Below, in pieces: positions 10,533 through 23,500 of a DNA stretch of 25,304 nt. This DNA comes from a virus. The notes below the pieces were generated by a model, which was given only the letters and a program-made list of their open reading frames with translations, made no database searches and was not told the DNA's origin. How positions within the stretch are numbered: the first letter of the stretch is position 1; each line of letters opens with the position of its first letter. Where the stretch lies: positions 1 to 25,304 of IMG/VR virus record IMGVR_UViG_3300002460_000152; one strand, written 5' to 3'. A program made the translations under genes and the position numbers.

Positions 10533-11128
10533 TTTAATACTCCTGTAAATACACCTATAGATGAAAAAATAGAAACATTCTTGAACTCTTTATCTACTTT
10601 AAATTCATATTTATTAAATAATTCTATCCACCATTCCTTAGTATGAACTTGTATATGAGTTTTATCTTCCCTACTAACAGCTAAAACAAAATGTTCTCCT
10701 TCTACATAACTTACAGGAATTCTAAATATCAAACCTTTCTTGGGTGTATATTTATATAAAAGCATAAAAATTCTATGTAACTCATCAGTATCAATATGTT
10801 CTAATACATCTAACATAATTATCCAATCTTGTTCTGATGTTAATAAATCTCTGTTATAATAAAATATTTTATTTGACATATCAGCATTTGTTTTAGCATG
10901 ATTAATAGCAAAATCAGATATATCAGTACCTTTTATATTTAAATAACCATTATTTAAAAATTCTTTAACTAAATTTCCTGTAGCACAACCAAAATCTAAA
11001 ATTTTATCTGTTTTTTTAATATCTAATTCTCCTGTTAAATCTACAAAAAGATGATAATATTGTTTCTTAGTATAATCTTTATAATTACTTATTTTACTAT
11101 CAATAAAATAATCTTTTTCAAATTTCAT
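10517..11128 (-). CDS. class I SAM-dependent methyltransferase
   Basis: A 203-residue Rossmann-fold methyltransferase. Motif I is ILDFGCATG (43-51), the acidic end of strand 2 is GTDIS (Asp69), and motif IV is LDVLEH (106-111). There is no NPPY or other DNA-base signature, so a small-molecule or sugar acceptor is more likely than DNA. The start is coupled to the radical SAM stop as TAATG. With the flanking glycosyltransferases it may methylate a glycan or a sugar nucleotide. Confidence 0.8.
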   Translation of the reverse strand: MKFEKDYFIDSKISNYKDYTKKQYYHLFVDLTGELDIKKTDKILDFGCATGNLVKEFLNNGYLNIKGTDISDFAINHAKTNADMSNKIFYYNRDLLTSEQDWIIMLDVLEHIDTDELHRIFMLLYKYTPKKGLIFRIPVSYVEGEHFVLAVSREDKTHIQVHTKEWWIELFNKYEFKVDKEFKNVSIFSSIGVFTGVLKCVEK

Positions 11129-12201
11129 TATATAAAATCCTTGTGTGGTGGTTCTATTTTCAAACTATGTAAAACAACATTTTGAGGTTTGTAAAAACAC
11201 ATACCTTCTTTACACTTATCAGTAGCGAATGGTTTATCATTATCCCATATTTGTTTAACTTTACTCATATGTCCCATCCTCCAATGTTCTGTAAACTTTC
11301 GATTGTATAGTGGTACAGCAGAGCAATGATAAAAATAGCCGTCTGCGTTAAGGAAGGGTTTTAATTTTCCAATATAACACGCTTCGTGAACGCTGTAATC
11401 TTTTCCCTGAAAGAATAAAACATCCTTACCTAATCTATTATTAATATTGCTAATCAAAGGTTCTATATTTTGCCTATAGTTGAATTGTTCTTGGGGATTT
11501 AAGCAATTAGGAACTATTCTAACCATTTTAGCATCATGTTTTTGGGCTATTTCCGCTATAAGGTCAAGCTTATCAACAGTAGAGTATCTATTCCAAACAT
11601 AACTAAACCCTATATCACCTTTGATTTTAGGTATATCTATGGCCTTAAATTTAATAGGACGATAAAAGTTTTCTTTATCTAAATAGGCTAAACTAATTCT
11701 AAGCCATTTTAATTTATCTAAGTTTTCTTGTAATATCCTACCTTCTATGTTATTAGTAATCAATCCAACTTCTAAACCATATTCATCACTGCAAAACTCT
11801 ATCAGTTCGTTTATCTCAGGGTATAATGTAGGGTTTCCACCACCGGTAATCTCAACAGTCTTTAATGGTCCCATATACATTAAATCCTCAATAGTTTTTT
11901 TCAAATCTTCAAAAGGTATTTCATCGGGTTTTTTAGGTGTGCCTGTGATTTTGAGTTTACCTGAAACTTCTTTAATATCAGTAACTTCGGTATAATTCCT
12001 ATAACCTGTTGAGCAAAAAGAACATTCAAAATCACATCTATCAGTTGGAGCTACTTGTAAAGAAATAGGTTTCCACTTACCTTTTTGAGCATCTTGTAAT
12101 CTATCTAAATGCTGGTAGAGTTTGATATTTGTGCTTGTAAATATACTTTCTAAACTGCCAGGTCTTTGGCTTGGGTCTGTTAAAATATTAGATTCAATCA
12201 T
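11128..12201 (-). CDS. radical SAM protein with SPASM-like C-terminus
   Basis: A 357-residue enzyme. The radical SAM cluster motif is CDFECSFC, with Cys56, Cys60 and Cys63, followed by EITGGGNPTLYPEI (SAM-binding glycine motif near 120). The C-terminal part has Cys275, Cys293, Cys330 and Cys335, able to ligate an auxiliary iron-sulfur cluster as in SPASM/twitch enzymes. Such enzymes modify peptides, sugars or nucleic acids by radical chemistry. Its base composition looks less AT-rich than its neighbours, with more CG and GG dinucleotides, which suggests later acquisition. It is coupled by ATGA to the upstream gene and by TAATG to the methyltransferase. The substrate is unknown. Confidence 0.85.
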   Translation of the reverse strand: MIESNILTDPSQRPGSLESIFTSTNIKLYQHLDRLQDAQKGKWKPISLQVAPTDRCDFECSFCSTGYRNYTEVTDIKEVSGKLKITGTPKKPDEIPFEDLKKTIEDLMYMGPLKTVEITGGGNPTLYPEINELIEFCSDEYGLEVGLITNNIEGRILQENLDKLKWLRISLAYLDKENFYRPIKFKAIDIPKIKGDIGFSYVWNRYSTVDKLDLIAEIAQKHDAKMVRIVPNCLNPQEQFNYRQNIEPLISNINNRLGKDVLFFQGKDYSVHEACYIGKLKPFLNADGYFYHCSAVPLYNRKFTEHWRMGHMSKVKQIWDNDKPFATDKCKEGMCFYKPQNVVLHSLKIEPPHKDFI

Positions 12202-13616: not shown

Positions 13617-13900
13617 TTCTCAATCTCCAACTTTAATTTCTTAATCTTTTCCTCATTATTCCTTGTAAATTCAGTATAAGCTAAACCAGTTAGAGCCATT
13701 AACAAATTAGCATTTTCAAGCCTCTTAATTTCTTTTGTTATGCTTTTGTATCTCAAATCGCCCTTAACTTCACAAGTAACACAACATAATTCTGTATCAT
13801 CATAAATTCTACCATATCTGTCTTTAGATATTTCTTCATCTAACTCTCGGTGCATATTACAAGATGCAACTACTTTTGTATCTATAATTTTAACAATCAT
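13613..13900 (-). CDS. small unknown protein with Cys motif
   Basis: A 95-residue protein (MIVKIIDTKVVASCNMHREL at the start) with CCVTCEVKGDLRYKS in the middle and a helical Lys/Glu-rich C-terminus. Cys14, His17 and the CCxxC could bind a metal. It is coupled to both neighbours by ATGA overlaps. No family was recognised. Confidence 0.5.
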   Translation of the reverse strand: MIVKIIDTKVVASCNMHRELDEEISKDRYGRIYDDTELCCVTCEVKGDLRYKSITKEIKRLENANLLMALTGLAYTEFTRNNEEKIKKLKLEIEK

Positions 13901-14217
13901 TTCAACTCCCTAAAAACATTACCAATGTGTTCAACTTTACAATATTCTTGCTTTACATTAGACCACATCGTCCCATTTAACCAAATTCCATTTCTCCAAA
14001 TTCCATTTGACCACATTCCATTATGCCACTCTCCATTCTTCCAAAGTCCATCAACCCAAATACCATTTAACCAAACTCCATTAAACCATACTAAATAACT
14101 ATAAGAAATATCTATCTCTGCATTTTCAAACTCAGCCTCTTTTAACCACGAAAACTTCTTTTCAGCTTCTTCAAAGCTTACTTCTTTTCTATTTTTTATT
14201 ACACGTTTGTATTTCAT
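13897..14217 (-). CDS. Trp-Asn-Gly pentapeptide-repeat protein (copy 1)
   Basis: A 106-residue protein. Residues 1-40 are a helical, charged cap (MKYKRVIKNRKEVSFEEAEK, later AEIDIS). Residues 43-82 are eight tandem five-residue units of the form W-x-[ND]-G-x. The C-terminal MWSNVKQEYCKV closes the fold. The regular five-residue spacing suggests a right-handed beta-solenoid like pentapeptide-repeat proteins, but with Trp and Gly in place of the usual Leu and Ala. The same protein family, also 106 residues, occurs at 23180-23500 on the other strand. Function unknown; DNA mimicry or surface binding by the Trp ladder are possibilities. It sits in an ATGA-coupled chain. Confidence 0.7.
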   Translation of the reverse strand: MKYKRVIKNRKEVSFEEAEKKFSWLKEAEFENAEIDISYSYLVWFNGVWLNGIWVDGLWKNGEWHNGMWSNGIWRNGIWLNGTMWSNVKQEYCKVEHIGNVFRELK

Positions 14218-16875: not shown

Positions 16876-18110
16876 GTATTATACCTCAAATTATTTAAAT
16901 ATTTTAACCATGTAGGTAATACTACCTTTTTCATATCATATTCCCTCAATACCATAGTACGTCCATTTTCACCCATTTTTTTCCTTAATTTTTCATCTCT
17001 GTATAAAATTTCTAACATTTCTACGGCTTTATGCATATCCATTAAACCTCTATCAACTTCCCAACTTCCTGTCCATGTACCATTCCTAATATTAGCCCCA
17101 TCATACTCTGCTGGATAAGGTCTCCCATCTCTTTCTTGGTCCAATAAAGGAACACCAAATCCACTTTCATGGTCTGTTATCAATTCCTTAGTTGTAGTAT
17201 AATCTGTTACTAAATTAGGAACCTTACAACTACTGGCTTCTATAATAGGTATTCCAAATCCTTCTCCGGAAGTAGATAAGAAATGTACATCCATTACATT
17301 ATAAATACTATTTAAATCTTCTTGCGTTAATCCAGAATAATATCTCATTCCAGTCCATTTAACTTTATTTTCTATTTTCCACCTTTTAATTAACTCTGTT
17401 AATTGAAAATAGGGGGCATTGTCATCAGGGTCTGAGTTAAATAACATAACCACATCATCTTTACCTTCTGCAAACTTAGCAAATGCTCTAACTTCTCTAT
17501 CTAACATTTTCCTAGGTTGATTTCTAGCAACACATCCTACTACAAATTTTCCGGATACTCCCCATTTCATTTTAGCCTGTTCTTTTTTTTCTTTACTTAG
17601 TGGGTAAAATCTATCTGTAAATACACCATGGGGTATATACTGACTATTTATGTTAAATAGAGATTTAACTTGAGCCTGACCATATTTACTCATAGCAACT
17701 GTATTCTGCCATTTTCTTAATATATTCTCACAATTATTAGGAAACCATCCCCCATCACTTGGATACCAAAATACAGATTTCGCAGGTGCAAAATCTAAAT
17801 TTAATCCCCAAGGATAACACATAAAGGTATCTAAAAGAGTATAAAAAATGTCAGGTTTTATATCTCTTAAATATGGCATTATTAAATCTTGTGCATAAGG
17901 AACTTTTACACTTCCACTCAATAATTTAAAATCCCATCCTGTACCATCTAAAAATTTAGCTCCCTTTAATGTCCTATGGTGAGTATTATATCCTATAACA
18001 TTTACATCCCAACCTGCTTCATGTAAATATTGTGCAACATAACCAGTTTGTAAACCAAATCCAGTATTTCCTAAAGGACTATCACTAAGCATTAAAATAC
18101 TACCACTCAT
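16872..18110 (-). CDS. GT4-family glycosyltransferase (second cassette)
   Basis: A 412-residue GT-B enzyme. The N-terminus has LMLSDSPLGNTGFGLQTGYV, a glycine-rich acceptor-domain loop. Then come YIPHGVFTDRFYP (158-170), VGCVARNQPRK (191-201, the start of the donor domain) and STSGEGFGIPIIEASSCKVP with the EX7E pair Glu283 and Glu291. The gene is preceded by a run with AGGAAGGAAAA and overlaps the methyltransferase stop as ATGA. It is longer than the GT4 of the first cassette but built in the same way. Confidence 0.85.
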   Translation of the reverse strand: MSGSILMLSDSPLGNTGFGLQTGYVAQYLHEAGWDVNVIGYNTHHRTLKGAKFLDGTGWDFKLLSGSVKVPYAQDLIMPYLRDIKPDIFYTLLDTFMCYPWGLNLDFAPAKSVFWYPSDGGWFPNNCENILRKWQNTVAMSKYGQAQVKSLFNINSQYIPHGVFTDRFYPLSKEKKEQAKMKWGVSGKFVVGCVARNQPRKMLDREVRAFAKFAEGKDDVVMLFNSDPDDNAPYFQLTELIKRWKIENKVKWTGMRYYSGLTQEDLNSIYNVMDVHFLSTSGEGFGIPIIEASSCKVPNLVTDYTTTKELITDHESGFGVPLLDQERDGRPYPAEYDGANIRNGTWTGSWEVDRGLMDMHKAVEMLEILYRDEKLRKKMGENGRTMVLREYDMKKVVLPTWLKYLNNLRYNT

Positions 18111-18637
18111 TTTTCCTTCCTCAAATCTGTAAATAAATAATTATCTAAATGAAAAACACTTCCATTATTATTTAAAATTGTATGTTTATCTATATAATCT
18201 TTAATTTCTTTATTACTTATTTTTTTAAATTTCCAATTAAAATGTCTGTCACCAATTTCTAATGATATTGGTTTAAATATTCCTCTCACTCCTGCAGTGT
18301 AACTATTATCATCAGGAACTATAAAAAAATTAAATACTTTAGGGTTACAAACTAATTTATGATTAGGGTCTATAATAGCATTATCTCCCATAGGTAATTC
18401 TATATCAACAAATCCTTCTGGTTTTAACACCCTATGAAATTCATTCATTATAAAAATAAAATCCTCCCCACTAAAATGTTCTAAAATATGATGTGCTCTA
18501 ATTTCATCAAATACATCATTACTCCAAGGCAATCCCCTTCTTAAATCCCTTATAATTTCAGGTTGAAATAAAGGATTTATATCTAAATTTATCCAATTCT
18601 TTAATTTTTTATTACCACATCCTACATTTAATTTCAT
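18107..18637 (-). CDS. class I SAM-dependent methyltransferase
   Basis: A 176-residue protein with motif I LNVGCGNK at 3-10, an acidic LDIN at 18-21 and ILEHFSGEDF/EFHRVLKPEG, typical of small methyltransferases of the Methyltransf_11 type that accompany glycan gene clusters. No DNA-methylase motif was seen. It is coupled to the GT4 gene by ATGA, so methylation of a sugar or of an anchored lipid is likely. The upstream AAAAGG site supports the start. Confidence 0.75.
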   Translation of the reverse strand: MKLNVGCGNKKLKNWINLDINPLFQPEIIRDLRRGLPWSNDVFDEIRAHHILEHFSGEDFIFIMNEFHRVLKPEGFVDIELPMGDNAIIDPNHKLVCNPKVFNFFIVPDDNSYTAGVRGIFKPISLEIGDRHFNWKFKKISNKEIKDYIDKHTILNNNGSVFHLDNYLFTDLRKEK

Positions 18638-18654
18638 ATCAACAAATTTCCTTT

Positions 18655-18795
18655 TTAATATATTTTATTAATATACCCACACCAAATACATTTAATATTT
18701 TCATCTTTTATTAAAATTTTATCTTTCATTAAATTTAAATTAGAATGACATATTTTACACTGTATAATTTTTTTATAATTTTTAATTTTAATCAC
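18655..18795 (-). CDS. 46-residue zinc-ribbon microprotein with GTG start
   Basis: A short frame starting at GTG, overlapping the preceding stop by eight bases. CKIC near residues 14-17 and CIWC near 37-40 form a two-CxxC zinc ribbon spaced by about 19 residues. The remainder is Lys/Ile-rich. The upstream GAAGGA is only one base from the GTG, so the exact start is uncertain. It is probably a nucleic-acid-binding regulator. Confidence 0.5.
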   Translation of the reverse strand: MIKIKNYKKIIQCKICHSNLNLMKDKILIKDENIKCIWCGYINKIY

Positions 18796-18982: not shown

Positions 18983-18987
18983 GTTTT

Positions 18988-19009
18988 TAAATATTTATGT
19001 AAATATTTA
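18988..19009. promoter_or_regulatory. repeated TAAATATTTA palindrome at the AbrB-like promoter
   Basis: TAAATATTTA occurs twice with two bases between, about one helical turn apart, immediately before the AbrB-like gene. The copy further from the gene doubles as the TATA-like element. Binding of a dimer here would block transcription. Confidence 0.4.
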
Positions 19010-19048
19010 AAATCTTTTATTGTATATTTTGGTGATTTAAGTTTATTT

Positions 19049-19099
19049 TACATAATTTTACATTATTTATAATATTATAAATAATGTAAAAATTATGTA
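19049..19099. repeat. long AT palindrome, candidate origin or hairpin
   Basis: Bases 19056-19091 are a perfect 36-base palindrome centred on AATATT. Allowing one extra A, the pairing extends to 19049-19099. The 18-base core ATTTATAATATTATAAAT (19065-19082) is repeated as a separate perfect palindrome at 19103-19120. Such symmetry is common at replication origins and protein-binding sites, and would form a cruciform in DNA or a hairpin in RNA. Confidence 0.7.
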
Positions 19100-19130
19100 T
19101 TTATTTATAATATTATAAATTATATACTCT

Positions 19131-19207
19131 AACACATAAAAAACTGGTGAAATAATAAAATATGGTTTTAAATTAAACCATGATTAATTATTTTTTTGTT
19201 ATGTGTT
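19131..19207. repeat. nested inverted repeats
   Basis: Outer arms AACACATAA (19131-19139) and TTATGTGTT (19199-19207) pair over nine bases. Inner arms ATGGTTT (19162-19168) and AAACCAT (19175-19181) pair over seven. No coding frame runs through the region. It follows the palindromes directly and may be part of the same origin-like structure or an RNA fold. Confidence 0.5.
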
Positions 19208-19209
19208 TT

Positions 19210-19402
19210 TATGACTCTATAATAATAAAAAAAAAACACCTTGAGTAAAATGCAGAAAGTGGTATCTGATATATAAATATTTAGTTTCTGGATATATTTT
19301 ATTATAGGGATTTCTATAGTAACTCATAATTAAATTTAAAATTAAAAATATATGTTCTCAATAGACTACGTAGTACGTACGTATATGTATATATAGTAAT
19401 TA
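19210..19402. other. noncoding AT-rich spacer
   Basis: No supported gene. It holds poly-A and AT-rich runs and, at 19367-19383, TACGTA followed by TACGTACGTA, three CG dinucleotides in a sequence where CG is rare. Part of the same noncoding block as the palindromes. Confidence 0.5.
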
Positions 19403-19537
19403 TTATATAAATAATATTATATAAAATAATACAATACACAGTTCTACAAAAGTTTTATAAGTCTTTTTATGAACCTTTTTAAATCTTTTGGTGTTCTCTC
19501 TGTGTTTTTTACACACTTTCCAAAAACATTTAATCAT
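19403..19537 (-). CDS. 44-residue basic membrane microprotein
   Basis: A short frame with the best ribosome site in the noncoding block: AAAGGAGG at 19547-19554, nine bases before the ATG. The N-terminal 28 residues are strongly basic (MIKCFWKVCKKHRENTKRFK and on) and the last 14 or so are hydrophobic (LCIVLFYIILFI), so it probably inserts by its C-terminus into the membrane with the basic part in the cytoplasm. The start codon lies in one arm of a ten-base inverted repeat. Function unknown. Confidence 0.55.
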   Translation of the reverse strand: MIKCFWKVCKKHRENTKRFKKVHKKTYKTFVELCIVLFYIILFI

Positions 19538-19614
19538 GGCTGTTTTCCTCCTTTATTACTTTTTCTATAGCATATTTTACAATCTACACCTACGTGTATA
19601 TGAAAGCCATGATT
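19532..19614 (-). promoter_or_regulatory. inverted repeat over a start codon plus six-residue leader frame
   Basis: AATCATGGCT at 19532-19541 is the exact inverse of AGCCATGATT at 19605-19614. On the minus-strand mRNA the downstream arm includes the ATG of the 44-residue gene, and the upstream arm includes the ATG of a six-codon frame (19590-19610) that ends before the ribosome site. Confidence 0.45.
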
Positions 19615-19701
19615 TTAAATAATATTATCAAAACACCTAGTTCTTATACCATAACTAATATATACTCAACCATATAATTTTTAATATTATAAATAATTAA
19701 G

Positions 19702-19920
19702 AAACACCTTCCCTAAAAATTCCTCCCCAAATCTCTAATTAACCCAATCCTATTCCAATCTTACCTATCCAAAACACCAAAAAAACCTAAACCAACACCC
19801 CCTCCCTTTCTTCTTAATACTCCTAACCTTATTTCTTAAAACAAACAACCTCCTCTTACCATCAATCTTATACTCTTTCCTTTCTTTTAATTAAAATCTC
19901 TATTATAAAAAATATAAACT
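19702..19920. other. 219-base segment without any G on the plus strand
   Basis: By direct reading there is no G on the plus strand from 19702 to 19920, while C occurs about 69 times. Only two G occur from 19621 to 19920. The last 34 bases overlap the 3' end of the replication ATPase gene; the rest is noncoding. The minus strand has G runs such as GGGAGGGGG. Confidence 0.85.
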
Positions 19921-21239
19921 GTTTCTGGTCTTCCTGCTCCTTCTTTATCTACTGTAATTCCTAATCTATTTTCACTTACACATTTAGAAAGAAAATCAGT
20001 TGTCCTATTAAGTCCTAGGTCCCATCTCCCATCTTGTTTTAATTTTTTTAACTTCCTAATTAAATCTCCTTTATTCATCCTCGTCATACCTTCTGAAACA
20101 AATAAATCTGCTATTGTATCCCATCTATACCTTGCCAAATCAATTCCATAATCCTTTTTCACCATATTATCTAATAAAGACCTAACTGCTTTCATATTAT
20201 CTTTACCCATTCCTATCCCATAATCTATGTCCTCTGTATTAATATATTCCCTTTCATCTAAACAACATCTATGAACTGCCACTTTATAACATAAAATATC
20301 TATCCTATTAAAAAATGAATATAAAATATCCTGCCTCTTATCTGTGTATTGTTTTAATATATTATCATTCTTTAATTCCATTAATTTAAGAGAAAAATAT
20401 TTTGTAACATCTTCATTAATTCTAATTATTTGTGATTTTATTTTTACTCCTTCAAAAACCCCTTTAATTGTTCTCATTAAATCATTAACCCTATCTACAT
20501 CCATAACATTATACAATTTATATTTGTTTTTTGAAAGTATGTCAAATTTTTCACCTCCAAAATCTTCAAATGTAACAATCATTCTTTGCATTAATCCTCT
20601 CTGCATAACTGCCTCATTTATACTCCCTGCAGGATAACTACCTGTAACTATACTTGTATTAGTATAAAATTGTATAAGTCCTGCTTTTAAATTATGAGAA
20701 ACTAAACCTGGGTCATCCATTGCCATTTGTAAAACATCCATAACTGTGGCCATGTAAGAAGTCTTACCACTACTAAGAAGCAAGGAACCTTCATCCCAAC
20801 ATATCAAATCATATTTTTCCAATAATCCATTAGTCCTTACATATAAATTTCCCTTTCTAGTAGGGTCTAATTCAAAACTTCCTGTTAAACCTGCATCAGT
20901 CGTTTTTGTTATATAAACACACTTTTTTTTAAATTCAGGCAGTCCTTTGTTATCATATTTCTCTACTCCTAATGAATCTAATTTTATTCCTCCTGTATAT
21001 TCTAATAATCTTGACAAAGATTTCATTCCTTCTCCTTTTCCTGTTCCTGATGGTTGTACTATAAAAGAATGTAATCTCGGATTTCTAGACCTACCTCCAA
21101 AATAATAATTTACATCTAACATTTGACCCAACCATACATGAAATAAAGGCTTTTCAAGATGAGGATTTGCTGTACAACATAAGTTAAAATATTCTTTCCA
21201 CAAACTAAATAAAAGTTCAAATTTTGACAATTTCAACAC
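19887..21239 (-). CDS. replication-type P-loop ATPase/helicase
   Basis: A 450-residue protein with Walker A PSGTGKGE at 63-70 and Walker B DLICWDEGS at 144-152. An Arg-rich RGLMQRMIVTFED segment near 215-230 may serve as sensor or arginine finger. The C-terminal 120 residues look like a winged-helix (DLIRKLKKLKQDGRWDLG). The closest patterns I know are viral and plasmid primase-helicases of the DUF3987/MCM-like kind, but the exact family is not certain. The start is GTG, with GAGGG immediately before it; no ATG is available before residue 40. It overlaps the HExxH gene and ends next to the origin-like block, fitting a replication initiator or helicase. Confidence 0.7.
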   Translation of the reverse strand: MLKLSKFELLFSLWKEYFNLCCTANPHLEKPLFHVWLGQMLDVNYYFGGRSRNPRLHSFIVQPSGTGKGEGMKSLSRLLEYTGGIKLDSLGVEKYDNKGLPEFKKKCVYITKTTDAGLTGSFELDPTRKGNLYVRTNGLLEKYDLICWDEGSLLLSSGKTSYMATVMDVLQMAMDDPGLVSHNLKAGLIQFYTNTSIVTGSYPAGSINEAVMQRGLMQRMIVTFEDFGGEKFDILSKNKYKLYNVMDVDRVNDLMRTIKGVFEGVKIKSQIIRINEDVTKYFSLKLMELKNDNILKQYTDKRQDILYSFFNRIDILCYKVAVHRCCLDEREYINTEDIDYGIGMGKDNMKAVRSLLDNMVKKDYGIDLARYRWDTIADLFVSEGMTRMNKGDLIRKLKKLKQDGRWDLGLNRTTDFLSKCVSENRLGITVDKEGAGRPETVYIFYNRDFN

Positions 21240-21974: not shown

Positions 21975-22014
21975 AGTATTTATATACTCTAGTATTTATA
22001 TACTCTAGTATATA
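21975..22014. promoter_or_regulatory. tandem operator-like repeats in a divergent promoter
   Basis: The 16-base unit AGTATTTATATACTCT occurs twice in tandem (21975-21990 and 21991-22006), followed by a partial third copy. TATATACT-CT-AGTATATA at 21997-22014 is an eight-base inverted repeat with a two-base spacer. The units contain TTTATATA, an archaeal TATA match. They lie between the leftward replication genes and the rightward operon. Confidence 0.6.
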
Positions 22015-22063
22015 AATATTTAAATATATACAAATCTATTATGTATAGTAAGGAAAAAATAAA

Positions 22064-22808: not shown

Positions 22809-23183
22809 ATGAAAATACAAATAAAAGATGTATATTTTGGGCGAATAATTTGTGAATACGACGCTAAAAATATAAAAGAGGTTGTAGAAAAAGCTGTTAA
22901 TAAAAAGATTGATTTAACTAATGCTAATTTAAGAAATGCTGATTTAAGAAATGCTGATTTAACTGATGCTAATTTAACTAATGTTAATTTAATTGATGCT
23001 AATTTAACTAATGCTGATTTACAAAATGCTAATCTAACTAATGCTGATTTAAGAAATGCTGATTTAACTGATGCTAATTTAACTGATGCTAATTTAACTG
23101 GTGCTAATTTAAGAAATATAACAATAAATGAAAAAAGTTTCAAATTTATACAATCTTGGTTTAGATGGACTATTGAAAAATGA
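22809..23183 (+). CDS. pentapeptide-repeat protein
   Basis: A 124-residue protein. Residues 35-105 are about fourteen tandem A[DN]LxN-type units (ANLRNADLTDANL and similar), forming a right-handed beta-helix of the Qnr/MfpA kind. Residues 1-30 are a short beta-alpha cap found before many such repeats, and the C-terminus has WFRW aromatics. Members can mimic DNA or bind enzymes, but the target cannot be read here. The repeat is visible at the DNA level as near-identical 15-base units. It overlaps the Trp-Asn-Gly repeat gene by four bases. Confidence 0.85.
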   Translation: MKIQIKDVYFGRIICEYDAKNIKEVVEKAVNKKIDLTNANLRNADLRNADLTDANLTNVNLIDANLTNADLQNANLTNADLRNADLTDANLTDANLTGANLRNITINEKSFKFIQSWFRWTIEK

Positions 23184-23500
23184 AATACAAAAGCGTAATA
23201 AAAGACAGAAAAAAAGTAAGTCGTAAAGAAGCAGAAGAGAAATTTCCTTGGTTGAAAGACGCTTCTTTTAAAGATGCAGAAATAGATATTTCTGATAGTT
23301 TTTTGGTTTGGAATGGTGGAACTTGGAGAGATGGAAATTGGGAAAATGGAATTTGGAACAATGGGCTTTTTAAAAATGGACTTTGGCAAAAAGGAGATTG
23401 GGAAGATGGGATTTGGGAAGATGGATTTATGTGGAATAATCTAAAGCAAAAATACTGCAAGGTAAAATATAATGGAAGAACTTTTGAGGAGTTGGAATGA
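23180..23500 (+). CDS. Trp-Asn-Gly pentapeptide-repeat protein (copy 2)
   Basis: A 106-residue homologue of the protein at 13897-14217, of identical length. Shared parts are MKYK.VIK.RK.VS, the EAE.KF.WLK.A.F cap, AEIDIS, and the closing MW.N.KQ.YCKV. Residues 43-82 carry eight five-residue units W-x-[ND]-G-x; the fifth has Phe in place of Trp. It is ATGA-coupled to the pentapeptide-repeat gene before it and to the next gene. Two different repeat solenoids are therefore made from one mRNA. Function unknown. Confidence 0.7.
   Translation: MKYKSVIKDRKKVSRKEAEEKFPWLKDASFKDAEIDISDSFLVWNGGTWRDGNWENGIWNNGLFKNGLWQKGDWEDGIWEDGFMWNNLKQKYCKVKYNGRTFEELE

Follow-up and report, generated by a model that had tools for sequence, protein, structure and literature searches.

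We analyzed a 25,304-nt contig (IMG/VR record IMGVR_UViG_3300002460_000152), whose full length we call the window. It covers part of the genome of an archaeal-type tailed virus with genes for a large terminase subunit, a portal, a family B DNA polymerase, an archaeal-type sliding clamp, an XPB-like helicase, and a primase-like protein. The closest named polymerases are from Halorubrum tailed viruses (~28% identity). The archaeal families of the sliding clamp and the polymerase, along with TATA-like promoters, indicate that the host is probably an archaeon. A radical SAM gene (11128-12201) has C at 13% of third positions, versus ~4% elsewhere, which suggests that it was acquired recently; using this gene to identify the host gave no result. 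Also, a gene for a W-N-G repeat protein is present in two copies (13897-14217 on the minus strand and 23180-23500 on the plus strand; ~73% DNA identity), and tandem 15/60-bp repeats at 22912-23117 lie inside a pentapeptide-repeat-like ORF (22809-23183). Genes for QueD, QueE, FolE, and QueC, with a TGT/DpdA-like transglycosylase, were found at L003:9976-11921, L004:1-666, and L004:1802-2932, and are likely a 7-deazaguanine DNA-modification set.

Another contig (IMGVR_UViG_3300002460_000171, or G001) has 6,118 nt in common with the window at 100% identity and extends rightward. A third (3300002460_000149, or G002) overlaps the end of the window by 96 nt and overlaps G001 by 17 kb. All three seem to derive from a single assembly. 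Elsewhere in the window, there are 100% matches to fragments from samples 3300025087 and 3300009285, which shows that the virus is real. In one of these fragments (contig 3300009285_000271, or L020), positions 1-276 do not match the window while the following part matches at 100%; the unmatched part disrupts the portal gene and resembles the end of a chimeric contig.

The locus that we consider here consists of a helicase-like gene, a stretch that contains no G on the plus strand, and then an AT-rich block with palindromic repeats (Table 1). The gene encodes a P-loop ATPase. We found no significant match for it in Pfam, PHROG, NCBIfam, or the PDB, no credible match in named phages, plasmids, or genomes, and no significant similarity to the HRTV proteins encoded upstream of primase. 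The predicted structure of the protein alone was unusable (pLDDT of 33). Two related viruses do carry homologs (24% identity; E = 3e-10 and 5e-8), and the homologous region is the C-terminal half of proteins of 716 and 743 amino acids. By eye, the N-termini of these longer proteins contain a primase-like motif. Because the homologs resemble primase-helicases, it was reasonable for an earlier note on this DNA to describe the neighbor as a replication gene, and the ATPase is a probable replicative helicase.

Table 1. Features at and around the G-free tract (window coordinates).
Feature	Position	Strand	Basis or remark
G-free tract	19702..19920		base count; no G on plus strand, no C on minus strand
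Noncoding part of the tract	19702..19886		185 nt; A62 C66 T57, 0 G
AT-rich (81%) spacer, candidate origin unwinding region	18983..19701		composition
Palindromic repeat, copy 1 (ATTATTTATAATATTATAAATAAT)	19062..19085		inside a perfect 36-bp palindrome, 19056-19091
Palindromic repeat, copy 2	19100..19123		repeat search
Palindromic repeat, copy 3	19674..19697		ends 4 bp before the tract
Degenerate fourth repeat copy, 3 mismatches	19408..19427		repeat search
Operator-like half-site TTATATACTCTAACACATAA	19120..19139	+	operator matrix
Operator-like half-site ATATATACTCAACCATATAA	19658..19677	+	operator matrix; beside repeat copy 3
Palindromic operator TTATATACTNTAGTATATAA, two copies (one right half degenerate)	21980..22015		divergent promoter
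TATA-box-like promoter motif TAAATATTTATATATCA, leftward operon	19267..19283	-	held-out site; joint best score
Possible 44-aa ORF with upstream GGAGG, inside the AT block	19403..19537	-	uncertain
450-aa P-loop ATPase, probable replicative helicase	19887..21239	-	homologs in two related viruses

A recount of the tract gave 219 nt with A80, C69, G0, and T70, in agreement with the length and the ~69 C that had been noted; the start that had been given for the feature (19621) is too early, as positions 19640 and 19701 are both G. The noncoding part adjoins the stop codon of the ATPase gene. We ranked the G-free runs across the window, and this tract is the longest. The runner-up (18575-18742) has 168 nt with just 26 C and is mostly coding: it covers the start of ORF 18107-18637 and most of a zinc-ribbon-like ORF (18655-18795). 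Similarly, the difference between C and G per 180 nt reaches 65 in the tract, and the next-highest site in the window (49) is coding. In 300 order-1 simulations with the composition of the whole window, the longest G-free run was 138 nt; in 500 simulations based on the C-biased 3' half of the neighboring gene, it averaged 132 nt and reached 220 nt at most.

To compare this composition to neutral mutation, we used the fourfold-degenerate sites of the window's genes, which on the sense strand are 45% A, 3.8% C, 5.2% G, and 46% T. Because the skew at these sites is near zero, mutation pressure cannot give a tract with 31.5% C and no G. A neutral spacer would be expected to have ~9% GC, counting both strands together, versus 36% C with no G in the tract's noncoding part, so either selection or a (recent) foreign source is needed. 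We also computed GC skew across the window, as the earlier note had proposed. It originates in the coding sequence, and for this reason it cannot be used to place an origin.

The tract has stop codons in every frame on both strands, and ATG is impossible on its plus strand because there is no G. The one open stretch (41 codons) has a codon score of 0.20, which places it close to the bottom 1% of gene windows. We therefore rejected a coding gene on either strand. The previous statement that no coding frame accounts for the tract holds for 19702-19886, while the final 34 nt (19887-19920) belong to the ATPase gene, as its 3' end. Overall, the tract is real and extreme, and chance, mutation bias, deamination, and coding are inadequate explanations; its function is putative.

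If folded as RNA, the plus strand has no predicted structure at all (minimum free energy of 0.0), as had been suggested, and it is the least structured of ~500 219-nt segments from across the window. The minus strand folds like its own shuffles (z-scores of -0.9 to +0.4), and searching the tract with Rfam models gave no match at the gathering score, so we rejected a structured RNA. Internal repeats within the tract were no better than in shuffles. Averaged over 100 or 185 nt, G4Hunter scores in the window are most extreme on the minus strand of the tract, where the best 25-nt score is 1.56. We found no three-tetrad motif in the tract (four runs of at least three Gs, with loops of up to 12). 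A quadruplex on this strand, which was among the explanations first offered, is thus possible but weak, with two-tetrad motifs only. The tract may also include a strand-specific binding site, another of those explanations.

Few parts of the window are as rich in A and T as the block at 18983-19701. The palindromic repeat occurs twice on its far side and once beside the tract. Across the whole window and both strands, we found seven matches to the repeat, all in this block, where 0.8 would be expected, and none of 100 shuffles reached this count. The perfect palindrome around copy 1 has 18-bp arms, as compared to at most 12 bp in 40 simulations of the window and at most 13 bp in 300 simulations of the spacer. 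The repeat search covered the window, L003, L004, and L015 (L016 was left out): the repeat is absent from L004 and L015, and the only copy in L003 is shared with the window.

A different palindrome, TTATATACTNTAGTATATAA, lies just upstream of TATA-like boxes in the window (21980-22015) and at L003:7409 and L004:7161. The presence of this operator at the virus's promoters suggests one viral regulator. We built a matrix from four operator sites at these promoters, and its two best further matches, at 19120 (score 14.6) and 19658 (14.1), are at the edges of the AT-rich block. These scores barely exceed the maximum from simulations of the window (13.7), and in a local AT-rich simulation, the maximum was 17.7 (exceeding the half-sites once) and the 95% point was 11.3.

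We tentatively propose, at somewhat less than an even chance, that this archaeal-type tailed virus has a cis-acting replication-origin region, of which the tract is the strand-asymmetric arm. An initiator would bind the palindromic repeats and the AT-rich block would melt, after which the tract would remain open asymmetrically. The plus strand, with only A, C, and T, would be unable to fold and would offer bare single-stranded DNA to a helicase, a primase, or a single-strand-binding protein, while the G-rich minus strand might be kept out of the duplex by G-G structures or by a strand-specific protein. The asymmetry of the tract would give the origin its polarity. The sequence itself shows the composition and placement of the tract, the lack of predicted structure in its plus strand, the repeats, and the helicase-like gene beside it; we infer the role of the block as an origin, the participation of the tract, and the polarity.

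Several features of the locus are consistent with an origin. The basic layout of an archaeal origin is an AT-rich region, flanking repeats, and an adjacent initiator gene (PMC4010727). The block at 18983-19701 (81% AT) could serve as the unwinding region, repeats flank it (at 19062, 19100, and 19674), and the gene nearby encodes a helicase-like ATPase that is related to primase-helicase-like proteins. The confinement of the repeat to this block, the long perfect palindrome, the operator matches at its edges, the unfolded plus strand, and the G4Hunter means of the minus strand also favor this reading, as does a composition that calls for selection or a foreign source. On the other hand, the tract has not been seen in related viruses. 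We gathered relatives via the major capsid protein, which gave 24 related loci, most of them at 57-67% identity. The earlier note had suggested looking for the same feature in related genomes, and we found no comparable noncoding tract in seven related virus records (~390 kb), where the most skewed places that we inspected were coding. The regions downstream of the ATPase homologs in two relatives also lack such a tract. The phage collection had no convincing copy, and a search of viral contigs with a 23-nt pattern from the tract gave no convincing copy besides G001. G001 contains an identical copy (219 nt, 100%), but as this contig apparently shares its assembly with the window, it adds no independent observation, and the tract is known from one assembly of one virus. 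In our search for sequence relatives among phages, viral contigs, and related loci, only the AT-rich repeat had convincing matches. The two-tetrad limit on quadruplexes and the modest scores of the operator half-sites relative to simulation also count against an origin.

Alternatively, the tract might be the 3' untranslated region and transcription-termination zone of the helicase operon, with U-tracts in the minus-strand RNA (G, A, and U only) being read by the archaeal terminator nuclease FttA/aCPSF1 and the lack of C preventing stable hairpins. On the transcribed side, the tract directly follows the stop codon, the minus strand has tracts of U7, U5, and U4, and FttA prefers U-rich RNA (PMC11616081). 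Also, a search for a hairpin terminator found none. We nevertheless consider this unlikely: 66 Gs in 185 nt, and not a single C, are needless for termination at U-tracts; the minus strand folds no more weakly than its own shuffles (z = -0.9); and the homologs in relatives lack a similar 3' region.

More doubtful still is that the tract is a functionless remnant of foreign, strongly skewed DNA, or another accident of composition. This would fit with its being unique to this virus in everything we searched, and with the absence of an internal repeat, fold, or coding signal. But since neutral sites in this genome drift to ~9% GC, a functionless insert should decay unless it is very recent. Furthermore, our search for a source found none, and the tract abuts an organized repeat block.

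We also think it improbable that the plus strand gives rise to a noncoding or antisense RNA (A, C, and U only) that starts near the half-site at 19658 and extends antisense to the 3' portion of the helicase mRNA. The G-free run starts shortly downstream of that half-site, and the RNA is predicted to be fully unstructured. However, no TATA-like site at the tract rises above noise on either strand (best scores of 6.4-7.0, when ~14 chance sites per strand score 8 or above), so we rejected a promoter there.

An R-loop that primes replication from a minus-strand transcript, as in ColE1 or mitochondria, was another of the original suggestions, and it seems very unlikely. The G-over-C skew of the RNA strand is maximal, and the tract is beside an AT-rich block. 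Yet by nearest-neighbor parameters, the energy of the hybrid minus that of the duplex is about -14 kcal per 200 bp in the tract's noncoding part, which is unexceptional: at least 12 other sites in the virus are more favorable (-26.7 to -15.9). Finally, a deamination footprint, with complete C-to-T conversion of the minus strand, is already largely refuted and has almost no chance of being correct: although no C is left on that strand, a large excess of T over A would be expected, and with T80 and A70 nearly balanced, few Cs can have been converted, while G (31.5%) is far above the neutral value of 5%.

It is useful to compare the proposed origin to known systems. As in archaeal origins, the AT-rich block has repeats on both sides and is beside a replication gene, but the repeats here are AT-only palindromes, at most putative origin recognition boxes, and the neighbor is a helicase-like ATPase, at most a putative equivalent of the initiator Orc1/Cdc6. 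In the haloarchaeal boxes with a G-string, a G-rich strand element also abuts a repeat; that G-string is short, while the element here is 185-219 nt and totally free of C. Metazoan OGRE/G4 elements are likewise strand-asymmetric and G-rich and on one side of the presumed initiation zone, and deletion of an OGRE reduces origin activity (PMC6646384). They differ in that the tract has no three-tetrad quadruplex motif, and they are from another domain of life. The plus-strand RNA of the tract also resembles Rho utilization sites in being C-rich, G-free, and unstructured, but the virus looks archaeal, and factor-dependent termination in archaea uses FttA, which favors U-rich RNA (PMC11616081).

We speculate, as a long shot, that the tract represents a new kind of origin element in an archaeal virus: a noncoding arm that is kept without one base on one strand so that it stays single-stranded and directs the loading of the helicase. 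This might be tied to guanine modification of the viral DNA, because within the tract such modification could affect the minus strand only.

Little is known of where replication starts in uncultivated archaeal viruses. The locus described here is a concrete candidate that has boundaries and contains a sub-element that can be tested, and its strand asymmetry is of a kind that neutral mutation does not give rise to in this genome.
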